Shown here: piece by piece, positions 39,891-54,002 of the stretch | How the letters are laid out: the number at the start of each line of letters is the position of its first letter | Position numbering within the stretch: position 1 is the stretch's first letter | DNA from: Candidatus Coatesiibacteriota bacterium | GTDB taxonomy: Bacteria > RBG-13-66-14 > B26-G2 > JAUVZD01 | Reading direction: 5' to 3' | Assembly: GCA_030602715.1 (NCBI GenBank) | Contig: JAUVZD010000003.1 | Span: forward strand, 62,001 to 126,000 | DNA length: 64,000 nucleotides | Notes under the pieces: model-generated | Seen by the model: the letters and a program-made list of their open reading frames with translations, nothing else | What the model was told of the DNA's origin: nothing | Database searches by the model: none | Position numbers and translations under genes: made by a program

Positions 39891-39927
39891 AAACCCTACA
39901 AAAAAAGACGGGCTTGGCGCCCGCCTT
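39891..39927. repeat. right direct repeat bracketing the AT-rich cassette
   Basis: It matches 38105-38142 almost exactly. The enclosed DNA holds the two-gene AT-rich operon and the YjzC-like gene. Confidence 0.8.
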
Positions 39928-40095: not shown

Positions 40096-41529
40096 TCAAT
40101 CAAGCCTTTTCTCCTCTGGCAGTAGAAGCGATTTTATCTCCGCTATAAGGTCCTCAATGGGGACCGTCCTCTGACCGACTTTCCTCTCTACCCATTCTTC
40201 CCTGTCTTCAATCTTGATTTTCTCGGCTTTAATCACCCTCAAGTCTTTGATTGAAACTTGATTGCTGGAAAACTCATCAGGTCCAATTATCACCGCGATG
40301 GGGATCATCTGCCTGTCGGCATATTTCAATTGCTTGGTGAGGGTATTTTCCTTCCCCATATATAGCTCTGTCTTTATTTGACCCGCTCTGAGCTTTTGGG
40401 CTATCTTTTGGTATTCAATTATCTTGTCCTCCACCATCACCGTAACCAGAACATCAGCGGTGGAGGGTCTCTCATCTATCATCTCCAACTTTTGCATGGC
40501 TGAAAAGAGGCGGTCAACTCCGATGGAAGCTCCCGTAGCGGGCACTTTTTCACCGGCGAAATGCTCTATCAATTCATCAAAGCGCCCTCCAGCCATAACG
40601 CTTCCAAAGCCTATCACCCTTTCATCGGTGAGGATTGCCTCAAAGACCGGTCCGGTATAGTAGTCAAGACCTCTGGCTATGCTCAGGTCAACAATCGCCT
40701 CCTCGTCGGAGATATTCAGGGCATCAAGATATTCGGAAATCTCCCTTAGCTCGCCGATTCCCTCCTCCGCTCCCTTGATGCCCTTAAACAGCTCTTTTAA
40801 TAAATTTATGGTCTCCAGGCGATTTTGTGCGGGCAGATTGAGAAATTCCTCAATTTTGGATATTTGAGCATCGTTGAGCCCCAAGCCTGCTATTTCATCG
40901 CCGGATTCATCTATCCTGCCGTCACCGAGCTCCAGCATAACTTTTTCAAGTCCTTGCTTTTCCAATTTATCCATCACTCGGAAGACAACGAGCGAAAGTT
41001 GGGGTTCAATGTCGGCAAAGGCTATCAGACTGTTTAAAACTTTCCTGTTGCTAAACCTGATTTTGAAGGCGAGTCCAAGTTTAATGAGACAATCACGCAT
41101 GGCGGAGATGATCTCGGCATCCGCCACCATAGAATCCGTCCCCACGGTATCTATATCAAACTGGATGAACTCCCGAAACCTTCCCGGATCGGGCTTATCG
41201 TATCTCCATACCGGTTGAATCTGATACCTTTTGAAAGGTCTGGGAAGTTCCTTATATTGGGCAACCACCCTGGATAGAGGAACCGTCAGGTCAAACCTTA
41301 AGCCGACCTCGTTGCCCTCCGGTTCTTTGAAGAGGTATATCTGTTTGCTGGCTTCTTCCCCATACCCCAAAAGGACATCCTTGTATTCAAGAGCCGGTGT
41401 GGAAAGGGGCACGAAGCCGTAGGACTCGTAAACATCTCTGATTGCGGAGATAACCCTTTCACGGGCGATTATCTCCCCGGAGAGGAAATCTCTGAACCCT
41501 TTTAAGATTTTTGGTTCAACTTTCTTCAT
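40096..41529 (-). CDS. hisS: histidyl-tRNA synthetase
   Basis: This 477-residue class II synthetase has ILKGFRDFLSGE at the start, motif 1 around YGFVPLSTPALEY and motif 2 with GLRFDLTVPLSRVVAQ and RYQIQPVWRYDKPDPGRFREF. The HisA histidine-specific motif IARGLDYYTGPVFE and motif 3 GGRFDELIEHF follow. The C-terminal anticodon-binding domain follows from about 370. It is longer than the common 420-residue bacterial form, with an extended C-terminus. ATG 41529 has AAGGA upstream. tRNA-His ends 27 bases upstream on the same strand, so synthetase and substrate are probably co-transcribed. Confidence 0.97.
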   Translation of the reverse strand: MKKVEPKILKGFRDFLSGEIIARERVISAIRDVYESYGFVPLSTPALEYKDVLLGYGEEASKQIYLFKEPEGNEVGLRFDLTVPLSRVVAQYKELPRPFKRYQIQPVWRYDKPDPGRFREFIQFDIDTVGTDSMVADAEIISAMRDCLIKLGLAFKIRFSNRKVLNSLIAFADIEPQLSLVVFRVMDKLEKQGLEKVMLELGDGRIDESGDEIAGLGLNDAQISKIEEFLNLPAQNRLETINLLKELFKGIKGAEEGIGELREISEYLDALNISDEEAIVDLSIARGLDYYTGPVFEAILTDERVIGFGSVMAGGRFDELIEHFAGEKVPATGASIGVDRLFSAMQKLEMIDERPSTADVLVTVMVEDKIIEYQKIAQKLRAGQIKTELYMGKENTLTKQLKYADRQMIPIAVIIGPDEFSSNQVSIKDLRVIKAEKIKIEDREEWVERKVGQRTVPIEDLIAEIKSLLLPEEKRLD

Positions 41530-41556
41530 GGTTTATTCCTTTTAAAAATAAAAAAA

Positions 41557-41630
41557 TACCGGCGACGGGATTCGAACCCATGACCTTCTGATCCACAGTC
41601 AGACGCTCTAGCCATCTGAGCTACGCCGGC
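41557..41630 (-). tRNA. tRNA-His (GTG anticodon)
   Basis: A complete cloverleaf reads on the minus strand. The acceptor arms are GCCGGCG/CGCCGGT with a G1-T72 wobble, the D arm is GCTC/GAGC, the anticodon stem is TCTGA/TCAGA with loop CTGTGGA (anticodon at 41594-41596), and the T loop is TTCGAAT. No CCA is encoded. Position -1 is T and position 73 is A, unlike the usual G-1 and C73 of bacterial tRNA-His. Confidence 0.95.
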
Positions 41631-41640
41631 ATCTATAAGT

Positions 41641-41668
41641 AATTTAATTGATTTTTGAAAAAAGTCAA
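41641..41668 (-). promoter_or_regulatory. possible promoter of tRNA-His and hisS
   Basis: On the minus strand TTGACT (41668-41663) and TAAATT (41646-41641) are 16 bases apart, ending 10 bases before the tRNA. The same -10 hexamer serves tRNA-Asn at 46495-46500. Confidence 0.5.
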
Positions 41669-43314: not shown

Positions 43315-46278
43315 TTGGTTTTAAGGGTGATTGCTATACCGAGACCAAAACCCAAGTTCCGACCGGGGGCGCCTAAGCCCCCCGGCGAGGCGGAGCTTTT
43401 CACGGACCGTGAGGAGTTGTTGACCGCCTTTGAAGAGGCGCTTTGGGGTATAGAGCCGGACTCAACCAGAGTTCTCGTCTTTCACGGTCCTGCCGGGATA
43501 GGCAAGAGCAGTATAAGGCGAGAGTTGATGAGGAGGCTTGAGGCGGAAAGATATAAGGATGTAGCCTGGGGCAGTTATCAATTTGATGCAGAGGTGCGAA
43601 ACGCTCCTGATGTGGCATTGGCGATAATATCGGGTTCCTTGGGGAGGACGGGAAAGGTTAGATTTCTGGCGTTTGAGATATCCTCGGCGATGTTTTGGAG
43701 GAAGAAATACCCTCATCTTAAGTTCACCCAGAAGGAGATGCCCTATTTTAAGGTGGGAAGTGTATTCGCCAATATTGCGGATGTGTTTGTTCCCGGCATG
43801 AAGCTCGCCTCTGTATTGTTGGACTTGATACATCCTGCATTCAAGAAACACATAAAGATGTGGTGGGACACCCGTGGCAAGGAATATTTACGGGGTTTGG
43901 AATATGAGGAGCCTGAGGACATTCTTGGGAAGTTGCCCTCTTTCTTCGGTGTGGACCTGGTGAAATCGCTTGAGAGCAATAAGATGAAGGCGGTAATTTT
44001 CCTTGATGGATATGAGAGCGTGTGGCAATCGGAGACCAGGGTAAGATTCAGCGACGATGCCTGGGTGAGGGAGATGGTCGCATCCTGTCCTGGGGTTTTA
44101 TTTGTGGTGGGCAGCAGGAGACCTCTTCCCTGGGGTGAGTTGGAGGGTGAGGAGGGGGAGGGATGGACTCAATGTATTGAGGATTATACGGTTGCCGATT
44201 TCGAGGATGTCTATTCCCGGGAGCTTTTAGGAAAGGCGGGGATAGAGGACGAAGGGGTGTTATCGGCGATCATCAAGGGTTCCGCCGGTTTACCCCTTTA
44301 TCTGGACCTGTGCATTGATATATGTTATCGGATGAAGGCTTCCGGGCGTGAGCCGTCAAAAGAGGACTTTCCGCCCAACTATCAGGAGATATTTGAGAGG
44401 TTCATTCGTGATGTGGGGCTGGCTGAAAAGACCGCACTTGAGGTCATGTCTTCGTCAAGGTTTTTCAACAGGGATATATTTGAGATGCTGATGGAGGAGT
44501 TTAAGAGCGGATATCCTGCAGGGGCGTTTGAGGACTTCGTTCGGTTTTCGTTTGTATCAGAGGGTGAAGAGGAGGGAACCTATCGCATCCATGATCTACT
44601 GAGAAGGCATCTTCAGGATTATATGGACCAGGATGTTCGCAAGGATGTTCACAGTTTTCTCTATGAGCACTACAGGCAGAGGGCTGAGGTGGAGGACCCG
44701 AAATCCATAGGCGAGGAGAATGTAAGAGCCCTGGGCGAGGGGCTCTACCACGGTTTGGAGACGGGTGACGTTTTAGAGGTGGCGGAATGGTTCAATAGAA
44801 CGCATAAACCTTACTACGAAGGAGCGTATTACAATGAGTTGAGGGTTCTATATGAGGTGTTGGCGGAATCCTGTGAGACAGCCCTTGGAGAGCATTCGGA
44901 GCTGGCAAAGACGCTTAATATTTTAGCAAAAGTTTACATGAGGCAGGGTTGTTATTCAGACGCCGAACCTCTCTTCCTGAAGAGCCTTGAGATGGGGGAG
45001 AGAGTACACGGGAAGGAACACCCGGATGTCGCAGAGACACTCAACAGCCTCGCTGAGCTTTACGATGATATTGGTCGCTACGAAGACGCCGAACCCCTCT
45101 TGCTGAGAAGTCTTGAGATAAGGGAGAAAGCCCTGGGGAAGGAACACCCGGAGGTCGCAAATACGCTTAACAATCTCGCATTGCATTACAGAAATGTAGG
45201 TCGTTACGGTGACGCCGAAATCCTCTACCTGAGAACTCTTGATATTGATGAAAAAGCCCTGGGGAAGGAACACCCGGAATTCGCAGTTACCCTCAACAAC
45301 CTCGCCTTGCTTTACATGGACATGGGTCGCTACGATGACGCCGAATCCCTCTACCTGAGAAGTCTTGAGATTGATGAAAAAGCCCTGGGGACAGAACACC
45401 CGAATGTCACAGCAACCCTCAACAACCTCGCCGTGCTTTACATGGAAATAGGCCGTTACGAAGACGCCGAACCCCTCTTGCTGAGAAGTCTTGAGATATG
45501 GGAAAAAGCCCTGGGGAAGGAACACCCGGAGGTCGCAAATACGCTTCACAATCTCGCTTGGCTTTACGGGAAAATAGGTTGCTACGAGGACGCAGAACCG
45601 CTCTTCCTGAGAAGTCTTGAGATAAGGGAGAAAGCTCTGGGGAAAGAACACCCGAAGGTCGCATCTACTCTCAACGGTCTCGCTGTGCTTTACAGGGAGA
45701 TAGGACGCTACGACGAAACTGAACCACTCTTCCTGAGAAGCCTTGAGATATATGAAAAAGCCTTGGGGATAGAACATCCTTCGGTCGCATTTACTCTCCA
45801 TGGTCTCGCTGTGCTTTATAGGGAAATGGAGCGCTACGACGAAGCCGAACCACTCTTCCTGAGAAGTCTTGAGATAAGGGAGAAAGCCCTGGGGACAGAA
45901 CACATATTTGTTGCAGATACCCTTAGCAACCTCGCTGTGCTTTACAGGGAAATAGGTCGCTACGACGATGCCGAACCCCTCTTTCTGAGAAGTCTTGAGA
46001 TAAGGGAAAAAGCCCTGGGGGGGGACCATCCAGATTTTACAGAGATCCTCTACGAATTTGGTATCCTTTTGTATAAAACCGATCGGCAAAAAGAGGCTTT
46101 AGAAAAATTGGAGCGCGCCCTGGCAATTTATTCCAAAGCCCTTCCCTCAAACCACCCAAAAACTATTAATACCCTTAAAAGTTTAAGTGAGGTGTATGCC
46201 AAGTCTGGAGAGACCGAGAAGGCTTCCCAGTGTGCCCAGCGCGCCGAGGAACTTGAGAGGTCCCGTGATGATGTATAG
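43315..46278 (+). CDS. STAND/AAA-type NTPase with C-terminal kinesin-light-chain-type TPR array (NLR-like)
   Basis: This 987-residue protein has a P-loop at residues 58-66 (GPAGIGKSS), a Walker B AVIFLDGYE near 227, and GSRRPLPW in a sensor-like position. A winged-helix-like segment (IHDLLRRHLQDYM) follows, then about 11 TPR units of 42 residues from about 520 to 975, each with the pattern L-x-x-x-x-x-x-G-R-Y-x-D-A-E-P-L-x-L-R-S-L-E-I. There is no effector nuclease or protease domain at the N-terminus. It is architecturally like bacterial NLR/STAND sensors, some of which act in phage defence. The start is TTG 43315 or GTG 43327; neither has a clear ribosome-binding site. Confidence 0.9.
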   Translation: MVLRVIAIPRPKPKFRPGAPKPPGEAELFTDREELLTAFEEALWGIEPDSTRVLVFHGPAGIGKSSIRRELMRRLEAERYKDVAWGSYQFDAEVRNAPDVALAIISGSLGRTGKVRFLAFEISSAMFWRKKYPHLKFTQKEMPYFKVGSVFANIADVFVPGMKLASVLLDLIHPAFKKHIKMWWDTRGKEYLRGLEYEEPEDILGKLPSFFGVDLVKSLESNKMKAVIFLDGYESVWQSETRVRFSDDAWVREMVASCPGVLFVVGSRRPLPWGELEGEEGEGWTQCIEDYTVADFEDVYSRELLGKAGIEDEGVLSAIIKGSAGLPLYLDLCIDICYRMKASGREPSKEDFPPNYQEIFERFIRDVGLAEKTALEVMSSSRFFNRDIFEMLMEEFKSGYPAGAFEDFVRFSFVSEGEEEGTYRIHDLLRRHLQDYMDQDVRKDVHSFLYEHYRQRAEVEDPKSIGEENVRALGEGLYHGLETGDVLEVAEWFNRTHKPYYEGAYYNELRVLYEVLAESCETALGEHSELAKTLNILAKVYMRQGCYSDAEPLFLKSLEMGERVHGKEHPDVAETLNSLAELYDDIGRYEDAEPLLLRSLEIREKALGKEHPEVANTLNNLALHYRNVGRYGDAEILYLRTLDIDEKALGKEHPEFAVTLNNLALLYMDMGRYDDAESLYLRSLEIDEKALGTEHPNVTATLNNLAVLYMEIGRYEDAEPLLLRSLEIWEKALGKEHPEVANTLHNLAWLYGKIGCYEDAEPLFLRSLEIREKALGKEHPKVASTLNGLAVLYREIGRYDETEPLFLRSLEIYEKALGIEHPSVAFTLHGLAVLYREMERYDEAEPLFLRSLEIREKALGTEHIFVADTLSNLAVLYREIGRYDDAEPLFLRSLEIREKALGGDHPDFTEILYEFGILLYKTDRQKEALEKLERALAIYSKALPSNHPKTINTLKSLSEVYAKSGETEKASQCAQRAEELERSRDDV
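44870..46230 (+). repeat. 126-base tandem repeats encoding the TPR array
   Basis: About 11 units of 126 bases encode the 42-residue TPRs. Neighbouring units share long identical stretches (for example CTGAGAAGTCTTGAGATA and GAACACCCG), so the array looks recently expanded or homogenised. It keeps even the antisense frame open over 1.1 kb. Confidence 0.9.
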
Positions 46279-47459: not shown

Positions 47460-47996
47460 CTCTGCTCCTTTTTGGGGATTATAACACGGTGGAGTTCCAA
47501 AACAAGGGAAAAGGGTGAGAGGTTCTCCCGCCGCTATTGTAGTTTCTGTGGAGGCGACTCTTCGCCGAGCTGGGCTATGAGGGGGTGGTCTTCGGCAAAT
47601 CCTAGTGTGGTGGTGTTTGACGCCGGGTGACAGGAACATGAATTTTTGGGGCGGAGGGGTAGATTTTGGTTGTAAAGTCTGGTATAGTTACGATAAAATA
47701 GATAGCTGTCAATAATTTGTATGCAAATTCTGAGCTTTCTTATCCCTTCCAACCTATGAAGGGCAGGATTTGTCCAAGGCTTATCATTGTTTCGGTCTCC
47801 ACCGAACTGGCGGCAGTGGATGCAGACTATTGTGATGTAGCCTCCGCCTATCTGCTTTCGGCGGAAGAGCCGATGGATTACTTTCTTTTCCGGATTCTCG
47901 CCGTTAAACATTGTCAGCTTTCAGGTGTCTTTTAATCAAAGAACGCTTTTACCTTTTTTGAGAGATTATTCATCTTTTTTCAATAGGAGGTGTGAT
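47460..47996. other. intergenic region upstream of the alpha-2-macroglobulin gene
   Basis: Open frames on both strands (about 70 and 125 residues) lack ribosome-binding sites and resemble no family, so none is called. A small hairpin GGCGA-CTCT-TCGCC lies near 47554. A TTGTAA/TAAAAT pair with 18-base spacing at 47670-47699 is a weak promoter candidate for the downstream gene. Confidence 0.4.
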
Positions 47997-50900
47997 TTGC
48001 AAGCACCAAAAACTACCTTCATTCTGGGAATAGTTCTTCTGGCATTATCGGTGGTTATTCCCGCCGCTTCTTATGAAAGGGAGGAGGGGGCTTGGGAGGA
48101 GCCTCGGGAGGAAGAGGCAATATCCGAGGAAAGGATGGAGGAAGCCGAGGAGGTGGTAACCTACCGCACCGAGGTGCCGCTCATCGGTCCGGATTATGAG
48201 AGTAATCCACCGACAAGCGCCTATGCCCTCTTGCAGGACGTGCGTAATTACTACGATGAGGGCTCTTTTGTCTGGTCCCTTGCCGCCTGCGAGGAGTTTG
48301 ACAGGCGCTATCCGGGCGACAAGAACCGCCCGGAGGTGGATTTGGTCGCCATCCGTTGTATGCTTCGGTTGGGGTATTACCAGGATGCGATCAATGGTCT
48401 GGACGACTATCTGGATATGAAGATGGTCAAAGGCACCGATTGGGCAGCCGAGGCTATTGACCTCTATCTGAATCTCTACACCAGTGGAAGCGAAGCCTAC
48501 TACTACTACGATCTGGTGTATTACATCTACGAACTCCACGACGAGGGCTACTACGATTACCATCATCCCCGGACGGATAAGCGTCGGTATGAGCTTCTGG
48601 ATATGGCAAAGAAGATATACCGTGACTTGATGAAGAGGAGCGGTGTCGCCGCCCGCCTGCATTACGCCGACCGTCTGGTGCAGGATTACATGCTCATGTA
48701 TGACTATCTTGATTTTGCTCCTAAAGATGAAACTGTGGTGGAGGAGTTCAGAAATCGGTTGGAATACATAGAGATGGTCGTTGAGTTGGAGATGAGCCAA
48801 CAGATGGTTTCGCTGATAGAGTACCTGAAAGGCGAGCTCTATTTTGACTACTACGCCCCTACGGAGGAGGAGTGGGCAAGCGCTCTGGATGAGGATTACA
48901 ATGAATATCAACAGAGACGACAGATTGAGCTTGCCGAGGGGATTTGGAAGGAGTTGGTCTCAACCGGCGCCGAGTTGCCCGGGGGGGCTATGGCTCTGCT
49001 CTCCCTGACCAATCTTGATGTAGGCTACAACAACGACCCGGTCAGTGCCAGGGAGCGTTTGGAATATCTTATGGAAGAGATGGGGATGACCGGCGACTGG
49101 AGGGATTACTACCAGGGGATCATTGATGAATTGCAGGAGCCCTCACTGGGAATATTGAGCTCCAGCGCCGACTTCTACGAGAGTCCCCAGGTATCCCTGG
49201 AATTGGTAGTCAAAGTATATGAAGAGGTCAACTTCACCCTCTATCCGGTGGATCCCAATAAGGTGAACGAGATATTTGAGGAGTTTGGCGCTGTGGATAT
49301 GCCCGGTTCCAAAGCCGAGGCTCGGGAAGAGAAAGAGGTCATCACTCCGGAGATGCTGGTGGAGCTTAGGGGAATCCCCAAAGATGTTGAGGAGATAGAC
49401 GGGGTGGAGGAGGTTATCCGTGAATGGACCCTTACCACAAATGCTTCACCCGACGGCACCCCGAAAGTAGTCAATGTCACCCTGGACGACCTATCAGCCG
49501 GGTTGTATATCGTGGAAGCTTCCTCCGAAGATGACATTACCCGTTCTCTGCTGATGGTCTCGCCGGTTATAGTTATATCCGGCGCAGATGACCGTAGTAT
49601 GTTGATTCAGGCGATTGATGCCCGAAACGGGGAGAGCATTAAAATTGAAGACAGCAATCTCTATCGCTACTGGTGGGACTACGATGATGAGGGTTACTCA
49701 GAACAACGTAGCGAGAAGGTTAAACTTCCCGCCAAGAAACAGAAGGACGGCTGGATGATAAACATGGACAAGCTGGACCGGGATAGCTCATATTTCCTGG
49801 TCTTGGAGACCGAGGTCGGTCCGGCGCTGTTCAACTTTTACCCTTATTACTACCGTGAGCGGGATGACTATCAGGTGGGCATCATCTACACCGACCGACC
49901 GCTCTATCGCCCGCAGGATCTGGTCAGTTTTAAGGGCGTCGTCCGCGAGGTTGACTATGTGGAGAAGGTGCTCTCTCCCATCAAGGATAAGACTGTGCTG
50001 GTGACCCTCTACAGTCCCGACTATGAGGAGATGTGGACCGAGGAGTTTGCCACCAACGAGTTCGGCTCCTTCTGGGGGGAGGTGGAACTCCCCGCAGGAA
50101 CCATGTTGGGTTATCTGGAGTTGACTGCGGAGTGGGTGGATGAGAGCGAATATGAGTTCTATGCCTACACCTACTTCCAGCTGGAGGAGTATGAGAAGCC
50201 GGAGTATGAGATGACCGTGTTGCCCCAAAAGGACCGTTATCTCTCCGGCGAGGAGGTAAATGTGGAGGTGGTGGGCTACTACTACTTCGGTGGCCCGATG
50301 TCGGACAGCTATGTGGAGTATGAGGTTACACGCTCGGGCTATTATACCTCCGACTGGGATTATGAATACGACAAGCTGAAGAAGAAGGGCGACGGCTATA
50401 CCGACAGCGAGGGTCGCTTCCTGATAACCTTTGATTCCGACTACGCCAGGGAGTTTGACAACACCTATGAGGTCTATGTCAAGCTGACCGACCCCTCCAA
50501 CCATGTCATTGAGGATTGGATGTGGGTCTATACCTACCGCAGTGACCGTTATGTGGGGCTTTATCTGGACCAATATACCTACCACGAGGGCGACACCGTT
50601 GAGGCTACCGTCTACACCTACGATTGGTATAATGAGTATCTCTCCATGCCGGTAACGGTGAATGTCTATGAGCGGGAGTATGACCAGATGACATATTCCT
50701 ACAGGGATGTGGGAATCATCTACACCACCGAAGTCACCACCGGTGATGATGGTTATGCCACGGTGATGATAGACCTGGTGGACCCACCGCAGTATGTATT
50801 GGTGGAGGCGGTAATTGAGGATACCTGGGGAACCGAGGTAACTTCAGTCTACGACGCCGAGTTCGTCCGCAGAGCCGTTGAAACCGAGGAGACTGCACCC

Positions 50901-53900
50901 GAGCTTGCGCTATATCTGGATGAATACTACCCGGAACTGGGCGATGTGGTTACCCTCACCATTGAGTCCCGTTTTGACCATGCGGATGTTTTTCTGATCT
51001 ACCTCTCCAACTATATCGTTGAGTCCGAGATAGTGGAGCTTGAGCCGCAAGAGAGGGGGAGCAAGCTGGACATCGTCCTGGATGTGGGGCAGAAGTTCTT
51101 ACCTTATGCGGAGATATATGCCCGGCTGGTGAAGGATGACTACATCTACTACGACTACCAGTATCTCTATATCACCAACACCAACACGGAGATGAACATC
51201 ACGGTGGAGGCAGATGCCGAGGAATATACGCCCGGAGAAGAAGCGGAGGTGACCGTAACCTGCACCGATAATAATGACCGACCGGTCAAGGCGGAGCTCT
51301 CCCTGGTGGCGATTGACAACTCCCTTCTGGCTCTAGCCCCTGACGAGACCTACTACCTGCCCGATTCCCTGTCAAACAACCTGGGTCGTAATGTCTGGCT
51401 GGAGCAGGAAGAAAACTTCTATTACAGGGGAACTCTGGATACGGTGGTATTCTACTTCCAGTATTTCTACCCCTTCTCCACCTCCGGTGCCTATCATTTG
51501 CCCGTCCCGCAGGACTGGGATGTTGCCGGGGATATGCTTTACAAAATCTATCCCTCCTATTACATCCGCTCCGACCTGTATGACATTATCTACCTCTCCG
51601 GCACCAATCTTCTTTCCTATATTGGCGTGGAGGGAGAAAAGTGGGAGGCGACCAGTGATGTGTTCGGCTACGGTGGAGGGGAGAAGGGCGCTGGGGGTTA
51701 CTTTCGTGATGAGATGGCTTTAGGTAGCGCTGAAGACTTTGATGAGGGTGTGATGATGGCTGAGATGAAGACGCTGGAAGCGGAGGAAGGATATCCTCTT
51801 TCCGCCCCGGGCAAGGACTACATCGCCACAGATGGGGTGGGCACGATTACCATAGGGGGCGAGGAATTCACCCAAGCCGTCCTGCGCCAATATTTCACCG
51901 ACTCCCCGTTGTGGATTCCCGACCTCAAGACCGGAGGAGACGGAAAGGCTTTTGCCACCGTCAATGTCCCCGACAATCTGACCACCTGGAAGCTTTTTGC
52001 TCTGGGCGTGGATAAGGGTCAGCGCATAGGCTGGGGGGAAGCTTCCTTCGTCTCCACCAAGAATGTCATCATCCGTCTGAAAGCCCCTCGCCATATGGTG
52101 GTGGGCGATGTCTGCAAGCTGACCGCCATAGCCCACAACTACCTGCCCACTTCCAAGGATATATACATCTCCATAGATTTAGAAGGCTTGAGCCATGTGG
52201 GGGGTGACCAGAGCAAGACCATTAAAGTAGCCCCTGATGACAAGGGCATCATGGAGGAGTGGGTTCGTGCCGATGAGGTGGGGGATGCGTATATGCTCTC
52301 CGCCGCCCTGACCGATGAGGAATCCGACGCCACTGAGAAGTTCATTCCCATCTTTCCCCACGGAGCCATGCTGCGTCAAGCCTTCGCCGGGCGCCTGCGC
52401 GATTCAGTAACCCATACCCTGACCCTGGCGGATATGATTGACCCCGAGACCTTCAGCGGAGAGTTGATCCTCTCGCCTTCGCTTGCCGCCGCCCTCTCCT
52501 ACGGGTTGGACTTCTTCACCTACTATCCCTACGACTGCATAGAGCAGACCATAAACCGCTTCCTGCCCAATGCCGTGCTTGCCGCCTCGGCGGGTAAACT
52601 GGGCTTGGACCAGTATCAACTGTCAGAGGGACTTGCCGAAGCCATAGACGGCGGTATCGCACGCATCTACGAAGCCCAGACGGATAAAGGGGGATGGGCT
52701 TGGTGGAAGGGGGGCAAAGAATCGCCCTACATGACCGCTTATGCTGTTGACGCCCTTTACGCCATAATGGACAGCCCCTTCTTATCCGAAGAGTCCAGGG
52801 TTAAGGTTGACGAGATGTATCCCAGGGCACTGGAGTTCATTGAGGGTTGGCTTGTTGAGCTTTCCAACGACCAGACCCGTTACGACTGGGAGCTGGGGCT
52901 TTATGTAGGCGATGTAGCCCTCAGAGTGGGCATAAGCGATGAATATCTACCACTGATTCGGGATTCGGTTGACTATTACTTTGAGGTGCGTGACCCCATG
53001 TCAGATATGGGGCTGGTGCTACTGGGCTCTGCACTCCATCAGTTGGGCAACGACTATGAGGTGGGGGTGGTTCTGCGCAACCTGGACAACACCGCCAACT
53101 ACGGCTCCGATGATACCCTGTGGTGGGGCAAGGACCCCCAGCACTGCTGGTATTGGTGGGACGATTCGGTGGAGACCACCGCCAAGGTGCTGTCCTTTAA
53201 GATGGAGGTTTCGCCCGACAGCAAGCAGATACCGTTTATGATTGACTGGCTGGTTGACCAGCGCAGGGGTGCGGTATGGAAGTCCACCAAGGACAGCTCG
53301 GCGGCTATGCGCGCCATCATAGACTACCTGCTCAACTATCCGGAGATTTCGGCGCCGATAATCGCTGAATATGTGCTAAACGACGAGAAGGTTGGCGGGT
53401 TGGAACTTGACCCCACGGACTACGAGCATCCCGCCCGGGAGATTATCTTCCAGTTGGAGGACTTCGTCACCGGAGATAACACTTTGACGGTTGAACGCAC
53501 CTCAGGTGAGGGTCCGGTCTTCTACACCATAGCCCTTGAGTATTACACCACCGCCGACTACATCCCGGCGGTGGAGGGCTCCATCGGTCTGGAGCGCAAC
53601 TACTACCTGATAGACCGCCACTATGAGAAGGGGAAGCTGGTGGAGGAGCGCAAGCCCTTTGAGGGTGAGATAGAGGTGGGGGAGGAGCTGGAGGTGGAGA
53701 TAATCATCAATTCGCCGTATGACTTTGACTATGTGATATTGGAGGATCCCCGCCCGGCGGGCTTGATATTCACCCAGATAGAAAGCTACTACGACTGGTG
53801 GCTGGATGCCTATGTGGAACTGCGCACCGAGAAGCGAGCCATCCTCTTTGAGCGGCTGAACGCCGGGGAGACGAAGATAATCTACCGCCTGCGCGCCGAG

Positions 53901-54002
53901 GTGCCGGGAACCTACTCCGCCCTTCCCACCATCATCATTGGGATGTACTCGCCGGATATCGGCTCCTCCACTGCGGAGCTGAAGGTGGAGGTGGTGGAGT
54001 AG
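47997..54002 (+). CDS. alpha-2-macroglobulin family protein with thioester
   Basis: TTG 47997 lies 6 bases after AGGAGG (47985-47990) and starts a signal peptide (LGIVLLALSVVIPAAS); the 24 codons upstream are excluded. Residues about 50-370 form a helical, TPR-like region. Macroglobulin beta-domains follow, with the MG2 mark IIYTDRPLYRPQDLVSFKG. The A2M core comes next (DSPLWIPDLKTGGDGKAFAT). The thioester motif DCIEQT has Cys near residue 1514 and intact Gln, followed by the alpha/alpha thioester domain (GWAWWKGGKESPYMTAY). Bacterial members trap proteases in the periplasm. No pbpC neighbour is present. The protein is very rich in Asp, Glu and Tyr. Confidence 0.93.
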   Translation: MQAPKTTFILGIVLLALSVVIPAASYEREEGAWEEPREEEAISEERMEEAEEVVTYRTEVPLIGPDYESNPPTSAYALLQDVRNYYDEGSFVWSLAACEEFDRRYPGDKNRPEVDLVAIRCMLRLGYYQDAINGLDDYLDMKMVKGTDWAAEAIDLYLNLYTSGSEAYYYYDLVYYIYELHDEGYYDYHHPRTDKRRYELLDMAKKIYRDLMKRSGVAARLHYADRLVQDYMLMYDYLDFAPKDETVVEEFRNRLEYIEMVVELEMSQQMVSLIEYLKGELYFDYYAPTEEEWASALDEDYNEYQQRRQIELAEGIWKELVSTGAELPGGAMALLSLTNLDVGYNNDPVSARERLEYLMEEMGMTGDWRDYYQGIIDELQEPSLGILSSSADFYESPQVSLELVVKVYEEVNFTLYPVDPNKVNEIFEEFGAVDMPGSKAEAREEKEVITPEMLVELRGIPKDVEEIDGVEEVIREWTLTTNASPDGTPKVVNVTLDDLSAGLYIVEASSEDDITRSLLMVSPVIVISGADDRSMLIQAIDARNGESIKIEDSNLYRYWWDYDDEGYSEQRSEKVKLPAKKQKDGWMINMDKLDRDSSYFLVLETEVGPALFNFYPYYYRERDDYQVGIIYTDRPLYRPQDLVSFKGVVREVDYVEKVLSPIKDKTVLVTLYSPDYEEMWTEEFATNEFGSFWGEVELPAGTMLGYLELTAEWVDESEYEFYAYTYFQLEEYEKPEYEMTVLPQKDRYLSGEEVNVEVVGYYYFGGPMSDSYVEYEVTRSGYYTSDWDYEYDKLKKKGDGYTDSEGRFLITFDSDYAREFDNTYEVYVKLTDPSNHVIEDWMWVYTYRSDRYVGLYLDQYTYHEGDTVEATVYTYDWYNEYLSMPVTVNVYEREYDQMTYSYRDVGIIYTTEVTTGDDGYATVMIDLVDPPQYVLVEAVIEDTWGTEVTSVYDAEFVRRAVETEETAPELALYLDEYYPELGDVVTLTIESRFDHADVFLIYLSNYIVESEIVELEPQERGSKLDIVLDVGQKFLPYAEIYARLVKDDYIYYDYQYLYITNTNTEMNITVEADAEEYTPGEEAEVTVTCTDNNDRPVKAELSLVAIDNSLLALAPDETYYLPDSLSNNLGRNVWLEQEENFYYRGTLDTVVFYFQYFYPFSTSGAYHLPVPQDWDVAGDMLYKIYPSYYIRSDLYDIIYLSGTNLLSYIGVEGEKWEATSDVFGYGGGEKGAGGYFRDEMALGSAEDFDEGVMMAEMKTLEAEEGYPLSAPGKDYIATDGVGTITIGGEEFTQAVLRQYFTDSPLWIPDLKTGGDGKAFATVNVPDNLTTWKLFALGVDKGQRIGWGEASFVSTKNVIIRLKAPRHMVVGDVCKLTAIAHNYLPTSKDIYISIDLEGLSHVGGDQSKTIKVAPDDKGIMEEWVRADEVGDAYMLSAALTDEESDATEKFIPIFPHGAMLRQAFAGRLRDSVTHTLTLADMIDPETFSGELILSPSLAAALSYGLDFFTYYPYDCIEQTINRFLPNAVLAASAGKLGLDQYQLSEGLAEAIDGGIARIYEAQTDKGGWAWWKGGKESPYMTAYAVDALYAIMDSPFLSEESRVKVDEMYPRALEFIEGWLVELSNDQTRYDWELGLYVGDVALRVGISDEYLPLIRDSVDYYFEVRDPMSDMGLVLLGSALHQLGNDYEVGVVLRNLDNTANYGSDDTLWWGKDPQHCWYWWDDSVETTAKVLSFKMEVSPDSKQIPFMIDWLVDQRRGAVWKSTKDSSAAMRAIIDYLLNYPEISAPIIAEYVLNDEKVGGLELDPTDYEHPAREIIFQLEDFVTGDNTLTVERTSGEGPVFYTIALEYYTTADYIPAVEGSIGLERNYYLIDRHYEKGKLVEERKPFEGEIEVGEELEVEIIINSPYDFDYVILEDPRPAGLIFTQIESYYDWWLDAYVELRTEKRAILFERLNAGETKIIYRLRAEVPGTYSALPTIIIGMYSPDIGSSTAELKVEVVE

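Follow-up and report, generated by a model that had tools for sequence, protein, structure and literature searches.

How does a bacterium recognize its tRNA-His when the gene encodes neither the extra G at position −1 nor the C73 that stands opposite to it? The G at −1 of tRNA-His ranks among the most conserved features of tRNAs, and in the histidyl-tRNA synthetase (HisRS) of E. coli, Gln118 reads C73 and Arg123 reads G-1 (PMC10100707). The 64,000-nt stretch of Candidatus Coatesiibacteriota DNA analyzed here (hereafter, the window) contains a tRNA-His gene that lacks both bases and lies directly upstream of hisS. Here, we examined what the genome encodes for histidylation, whether the enzyme matches the tRNA, and where the pair came from.

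The tRNA-His gene and its genomic setting

The tRNA-His gene (anticodon GTG) occupies positions 41557–41630 on the minus strand; it was identified by both ARAGORN and Rfam, with exact ends and a score of 70.6 bits in Rfam, and folds into a good cloverleaf. Read on this strand, its first acceptor pair is G1–U72 (G at 41630, T at 41558), and A73 (41557) is followed by TTT, such that CCA is not encoded. Position −1 (41631), which is G in canonical tRNA-His, is T. The bases at −1, 1, 72, and 73 had been given in a first-pass annotation of the sequence, which also remarked that such a combination is known mainly from a clade of Alphaproteobacteria and that nothing else in the window looks alphaproteobacterial; this description is correct, and the host is not an alphaproteobacterium. 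In the genome (a 2.31-Mb draft of 18 contigs, rated 100% complete with 0.78% contamination), 45 distinct tRNA genes were identified, and none of the other 44 has a GTG anticodon. A search of the rest of the genome for a second, canonical tRNA-His, as the annotation had proposed, found none; a loose pattern gave many chance matches, and the Rfam list was decisive. Therefore, all histidine codons of this bacterium are translated with the tRNA encoded in the window. A draft assembly might in principle contain a sequencing error, a pseudogene, or a foreign contig in the bin, but the contig is 190 kb long, the bin holds no other tRNA-His or HisRS, the cloverleaf scores well, and the same tRNA end occurs in independent assemblies with related HisRSs. 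An artefact is thus barely credible, and an error at 41557 or 41631, which had been raised as a concern, is very unlikely.

The hisS gene (40096–41529, minus strand) encodes a HisRS of 477 amino acids that matches TIGR00442 with 372 bits (cut-off, 287); the genome encodes no other HisRS. As had been noted, it starts 27 bases downstream of the tRNA: exactly 27 nt (TTTTTTTATTTTTAAAAGGAATAAACC, 41530–41556, minus strand) separate A73 from the ATG, and they contain an AGGA sequence resembling a ribosome-binding site. Consensus matching found no promoter- or terminator-like site in this gap. The same approach matched a weak promoter-like sequence, TTGACT-16-TAAATT (9 of 12 positions; 41641–41668, minus strand), just upstream of the tRNA gene, and a terminator-like hairpin followed by a T run downstream of hisS (39906–39922, minus strand). 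From this layout, one transcript that starts at a promoter immediately in front of the tRNA gene probably covers both the tRNA and hisS. Elsewhere, the window encodes a 2025-aa bacterial alpha-2-macroglobulin-like protein with A2M, MG2, bait region, and bMG10 domains (47925–54002), and a 987-aa protein (43315–46278) that has a nucleotide-binding region at its start and roughly nine TPR_12 repeats.

Two alternatives would give the mature tRNA an extra nucleotide at −1. First, a Thg1-like enzyme could add G-1 after transcription, and A73 opposite an added G-1 is indeed the eukaryotic arrangement. However, a search of the whole genome for a Thg1-family protein (PF04446), also suggested in the first-pass annotation, gave no match at E ≤ 1, whereas the same search was positive in 3 of 14 control genomes; we regard this route as extremely improbable. 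Second, U-1 could be kept by RNase P and pair with A73, substituting for G-1:C73 in the mature tRNA. T-1 is present in 16 of the 18 tRNA-His genes with G1–U72 and A73, compared with 18 of 44 other tRNAs of the window genome (binomial p = 4 × 10−5, or 0.0025 against an assumed background of 55%, in both cases without correction for phylogeny), and the window enzyme retains the G-1-reading Arg of E. coli HisRS. Against this, U at −1 is a common preference of bacterial RNase P, some members of the Phycisphaerae have C-1 with A73 and so are unable to form the pair, and no extra nucleotide was reportedly found on the tRNA-His of Sinorhizobium and Caulobacter. Furthermore, 11 other tRNAs of the genome also have both T-1 and A73. 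The earlier remark that T-1 and A73 could pair is therefore right as to the bases, but the pair is probably incidental; we set it aside as an explanation, and a functional U-1 in the mature tRNA appears improbable.

Covariation of HisRS with its tRNA

The first-pass annotation had expected the HisRS to be changed to match the tRNA, and a comparison of motif 2 bore this out. In an alignment with E. coli HisRS, the place of the C73-reading Gln118 is taken by Asp114 (codon at 41188–41190, minus strand), which is followed by Pro115; Arg119, the equivalent of E. coli Arg123, is kept. When 67 genomes with data for both tRNA and enzyme were compared, the motif-2 Gln was replaced in all 31 genomes with a non-C73 tRNA-His, including that of the window, and was kept in 34 of the 36 with C73. 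Across 10 independent species pairs, defined by well-supported branches of an RpoB tree, the HisRS followed the tRNA in 9.6 on average and never went in the opposite direction (sign test, p = 0.002). The enzymes of the A73 clade described below also share two insertions. The first (residues 204–215, GRIDESGDEIAG; 40885–40920, minus strand) has the pattern G-R/Y/L-x-D-x-S-G...G and is predicted with high confidence to form a beta-hairpin (the GRxDxSG hairpin); the second, toward the C terminus (residues 439–454, KIEDREEWVERKVGQR; 40168–40215, minus strand), contains an invariant Gln453. Both were found in 33 of 33 members of this clade, including the window enzyme, and in none of 39 C73-type enzymes; the alignment shows that they are absent from the E. 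coli and human HisRSs. We found no solved structure of an A73-clade HisRS in the PDB, where the best sequence matches were human and other HisRSs and fold matches had at most 33% identity.

Experimental work on Alphaproteobacteria offers a model of how such a tRNA may be read. In Caulobacter, A73, U72, and the anticodon are identity elements in vitro (PMC9976931), and in vivo work on Consotaella identified G1:U72 and A73 as the critical elements (PMC7590224). The window tRNA has exactly these elements and, by analogy, is probably recognized in the same mode. In the proposed mechanism, a HisRS that has lost the C73-reading Gln from its motif-2 loop would recognize a tRNA-His without G-1 and C73 through G1–U72, A73, and the GUG anticodon; RNase P would trim the leader at +1, and CCA would then be added. 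The acceptor end is not the whole of this identity, because the genome also encodes tRNA-Arg (ACG, CCG, and TCT) and tRNA-Glu (CTC) species that end in G1–U72 and A73; the anticodon or other features must therefore keep HisRS off them. The Asp in motif 2, in place of the Gly of the tested alphaproteobacterial enzymes, counts against this explanation.

The alphaproteobacterial pair is the nearest known system. It occurs in the RRCH clade (Rhodobacteraceae, Rhizobiales, Caulobacterales, and Hyphomonadaceae) and in most SAR11, with Caulobacter crescentus as the biochemical type, and in motif 2 of the RRCH-type HisRS, ‘Gly123’ replaces the C73-reading Gln (PMC3937112). Like it, the window pair has no encoded G-1, has G1–U72 and A73, has lost the motif-2 Gln, and is the sole histidine system of the cell, and its HisRS belongs to the same clade and has the same two insertions. 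In contrast, the host belongs to a different phylum, the motif-2 residue is Asp rather than Gly, and the HisRS branches well outside the alphaproteobacterial enzymes within the wider clade, so the pair is not of the RRCH type proper; its tRNA also lies directly upstream of hisS, an arrangement found only in Pelagibacterales among the alphaproteobacterial loci read. With the canonical E. coli pair (Gln118/Arg123 and G-1:C73), it shares the class II HisRS fold, the motif-2 Arg, and the GUG anticodon, but it lacks G-1, C73, and the Gln, and has the two extra insertions. It resembles the eukaryotic Thg1-type system in A73 and in the absence of the motif-2 Gln; however, the genome has no Thg1, and in the tree, the human HisRS lies on the side of the C73 enzymes. 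G-1-independent HisRSs are also known from Trypanosoma brucei and Acanthamoeba (PMC9976931), which the window pair would resemble in functioning without G-1, in a genome with no Thg1. Those enzymes are eukaryotic and only distantly similar, with the T. brucei and T. cruzi structures being weak matches.

Distribution and phylogeny of non-C73 systems

The first-pass annotation had associated the trait mainly with a clade of Alphaproteobacteria, but it is not confined to them. We surveyed 290 genomes spread over the domain by pattern-matching the 3′ half of tRNA-His and followed up chosen genomes; at least 13 of the 290 have a non-C73 tRNA-His. Among the matches listed, nearly all end in C73, 12 genomes (including that of the window) have A73, and one, G048, has U73. 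In some genomes, the reading covered only the 3′ half of the tRNA, so that statements on position −1 refer to the others, and 10 genomes from which tRNA-His was not recovered stand outside these counts. A follow-up by HisRS similarity added Zixibacteriota (two loci, one with U73), UBA9088, Yes70-25, Phycisphaerae and other Planctomycetota (six loci), Cloacimonadota, Coatesbacteria, and Pelagibacterales. A non-Gln HisRS accompanies the non-C73 tRNA-His in the 13 genomes of the survey and in several named phyla beyond Alphaproteobacteria. We found no published report of a G-1-less tRNA-His outside Alphaproteobacteria, in a literature search from which subscription papers were missing. The commonest non-C73 form is that of the window (T-1, G1–U72, A73), and most Phycisphaerae have C-1, G1–C72, and A73.

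Several genomes depart from these forms. G029 has a tRNA-His with C1–G72 and A73 and an A73-clade HisRS with Glu in motif 2. In G048, the tRNA-His has A-1, G1–U72, and U73, and the HisRS, which lies outside the main clade, reads HKPGRF in motif 2; this is possibly a separate origin. In Zixibacteriota DeMMO3_3, a tRNA-His with G-1, G1–U72, and U73 is paired with an A73-clade enzyme whose motif-2 residue is Asp; this genome may represent an intermediate or a reversal. G176 has a tRNA-His with C-1, G1–U72, and A73 located 26 nt upstream of a hisS without the clade insertions; here, G-1 was possibly lost independently, although the genes are arranged as in the window. One further genome (G163) has three tRNA genes with a GTG anticodon, two of which have aberrant D arms.

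The relatives of the window genome are canonical. C73 was found in one genome of the same order, five of the same class, and two of the same phylum; G-1 was present in every one of their tRNA-His genes read at −1, and those with the HisRS read have a Gln-type motif 2. Only one other genome of the phylum (G012) has A73. In the RpoB tree, the window genome grouped with the member of its order (support 100) and then with its class (99), and was well separated from the genomes whose HisRSs are closest to its own. In the HisRS tree (about 80 enzymes, motif 2 removed), the window enzyme grouped with that of UBA9088 (99/86) and next with those of Zixibacteriota DeMMO3_3, Yes70-25, and a ‘Nitrospira’ bin (100/98), in subclades nested at 98/97 to 100/98; bins may be impure, and the ‘Nitrospira’ bin grouped with G291 and G292 in the RpoB tree. 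These enzymes lie inside a clade of 33 sequences (92/92), with 30 known tRNA states, none of them C73, that takes in all non-C73 genomes except two (G176, A73; G048, U73) and spans the window lineage, Zixibacteriota, Phycisphaerae, Cloacimonadota, Coatesbacteria, and others. The alphaproteobacterial HisRSs, sampled as one Pelagibacterales locus and members of the same class, are nested within it, and Coatesbacteria, Cloacimonadota, and further phyla branch outside them.

The earlier suggestion was that tRNA and synthetase may have co-evolved as one transcript; the tree tests speak against their having changed together in the line of this bacterium. Forcing the window HisRS to group with its own class gave a tree 236 log units worse, which was rejected (AU test, p = 9 × 10−5), indicating that the enzyme came from outside the class. 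A vertical joint change of tRNA and HisRS in the window lineage, convergent with that in Alphaproteobacteria, is also at odds with the two insertions shared by all clade members and absent from the C73 enzymes. The G176 and G048 enzymes may represent separate origins outside the main clade, which would lend such convergence some plausibility; for the window lineage itself, it remains very improbable. Grouping of the A73 clade with the human HisRS was also rejected (p = 0.014), which is a thin test of eukaryotic origin, with a single eukaryotic sequence, and a single origin for all non-C73 HisRSs was not rejected (p = 0.46). The state of position 73 changed twice on the HisRS tree and 14 times on the RpoB tree, with at least 10 of the latter changes forced by strong branches; either transfers between lineages or many losses of the pair must therefore have occurred.

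Probable transfer of the pair and its implications

Did the enzyme travel with its tRNA? In 11 of 31 non-C73 genomes, tRNA-His precedes hisS on the same strand at a distance of at most 200 nt, an arrangement found in none of about 41 C73 genomes (Fisher's exact test, p = 3 × 10−5); in one of the latter, the tRNA lies 290 nt from hisS. The tRNA-His of the window is closest in its body to a linked A73 tRNA of the Phycisphaerales (92%) and has the same acceptor stem, GCCGGCG, as the tRNA-His of G292, a genome with a HisRS close to the window enzyme, whereas the members of its class have other stems. The linkage enrichment, the tRNA body, and the acceptor stem together favor, short of proof, the view that tRNA and enzyme were transferred jointly. 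Alternatively, the synthetase gene alone may have been transferred and the resident tRNA-His then adapted in place, with the adjacency arising later or by chance. For Alphaproteobacteria, a proposal made in 2006 reportedly held that the resident tRNA-His changed in place to suit a transferred synthetase. The conservation of tRNA bodies is in keeping with this alternative: that of a canonical member of the class is 86% alike to the window's, so the tRNA alone is no proof of co-transfer. Several relatives, some of them A73 genomes, also have unlinked genes, namely Zixibacteriota DeMMO3_3, L046, four of the Phycisphaerae loci, and most Alphaproteobacteria; joint transfer is thus not universal. 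However, non-C73 genomes are strongly enriched in close linkage, the acceptor stem is shared with G292 rather than with the class, and a HisRS arriving without its own tRNA would meet a poorly read resident tRNA. We consider transfer of the synthetase alone unlikely, although it carries more weight than any other alternative above.

We therefore consider it very probable that a G-1-independent histidylation pair that moves horizontally, often probably as a linked cassette, replaced the canonical pair here. The HisRS would have reached an ancestor of this bacterium from beyond that ancestor's class, most likely accompanied by the neighboring tRNA gene, after which the canonical tRNA-His/HisRS pair would have been lost. 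What is new is the occurrence of the pair in a new phylum, the Asp in motif 2, and the linked genes.

The loss of G-1 in bacteria has been described as having ‘likely arisen only once’, in Alphaproteobacteria (PMC3937112), and debate on the alphaproteobacterial system has set transfer from eukaryotes against convergence (PMC5370408). Our data point to a third reading, in which an older bacterial clade takes in the alphaproteobacterial enzymes. More broadly, we lean toward the view that G-1-independent histidylation is an old mobile module of tRNA and synthetase that has repeatedly replaced the canonical rule across many phyla, and that Alphaproteobacteria obtained it in one such event, late and from other bacteria, rather than inventing it uniquely or importing it from eukaryotes. 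An essential tRNA identity would then be replaceable in nature, and a clade that spans many phyla and offers many independent species contrasts makes the movement of an identity rule together with its enzyme open to testing. Its deep-branching HisRSs may be used to study how G-1 became dispensable, and its members are candidate orthogonal HisRS/tRNA pairs for genetic-code work in laboratory strains.
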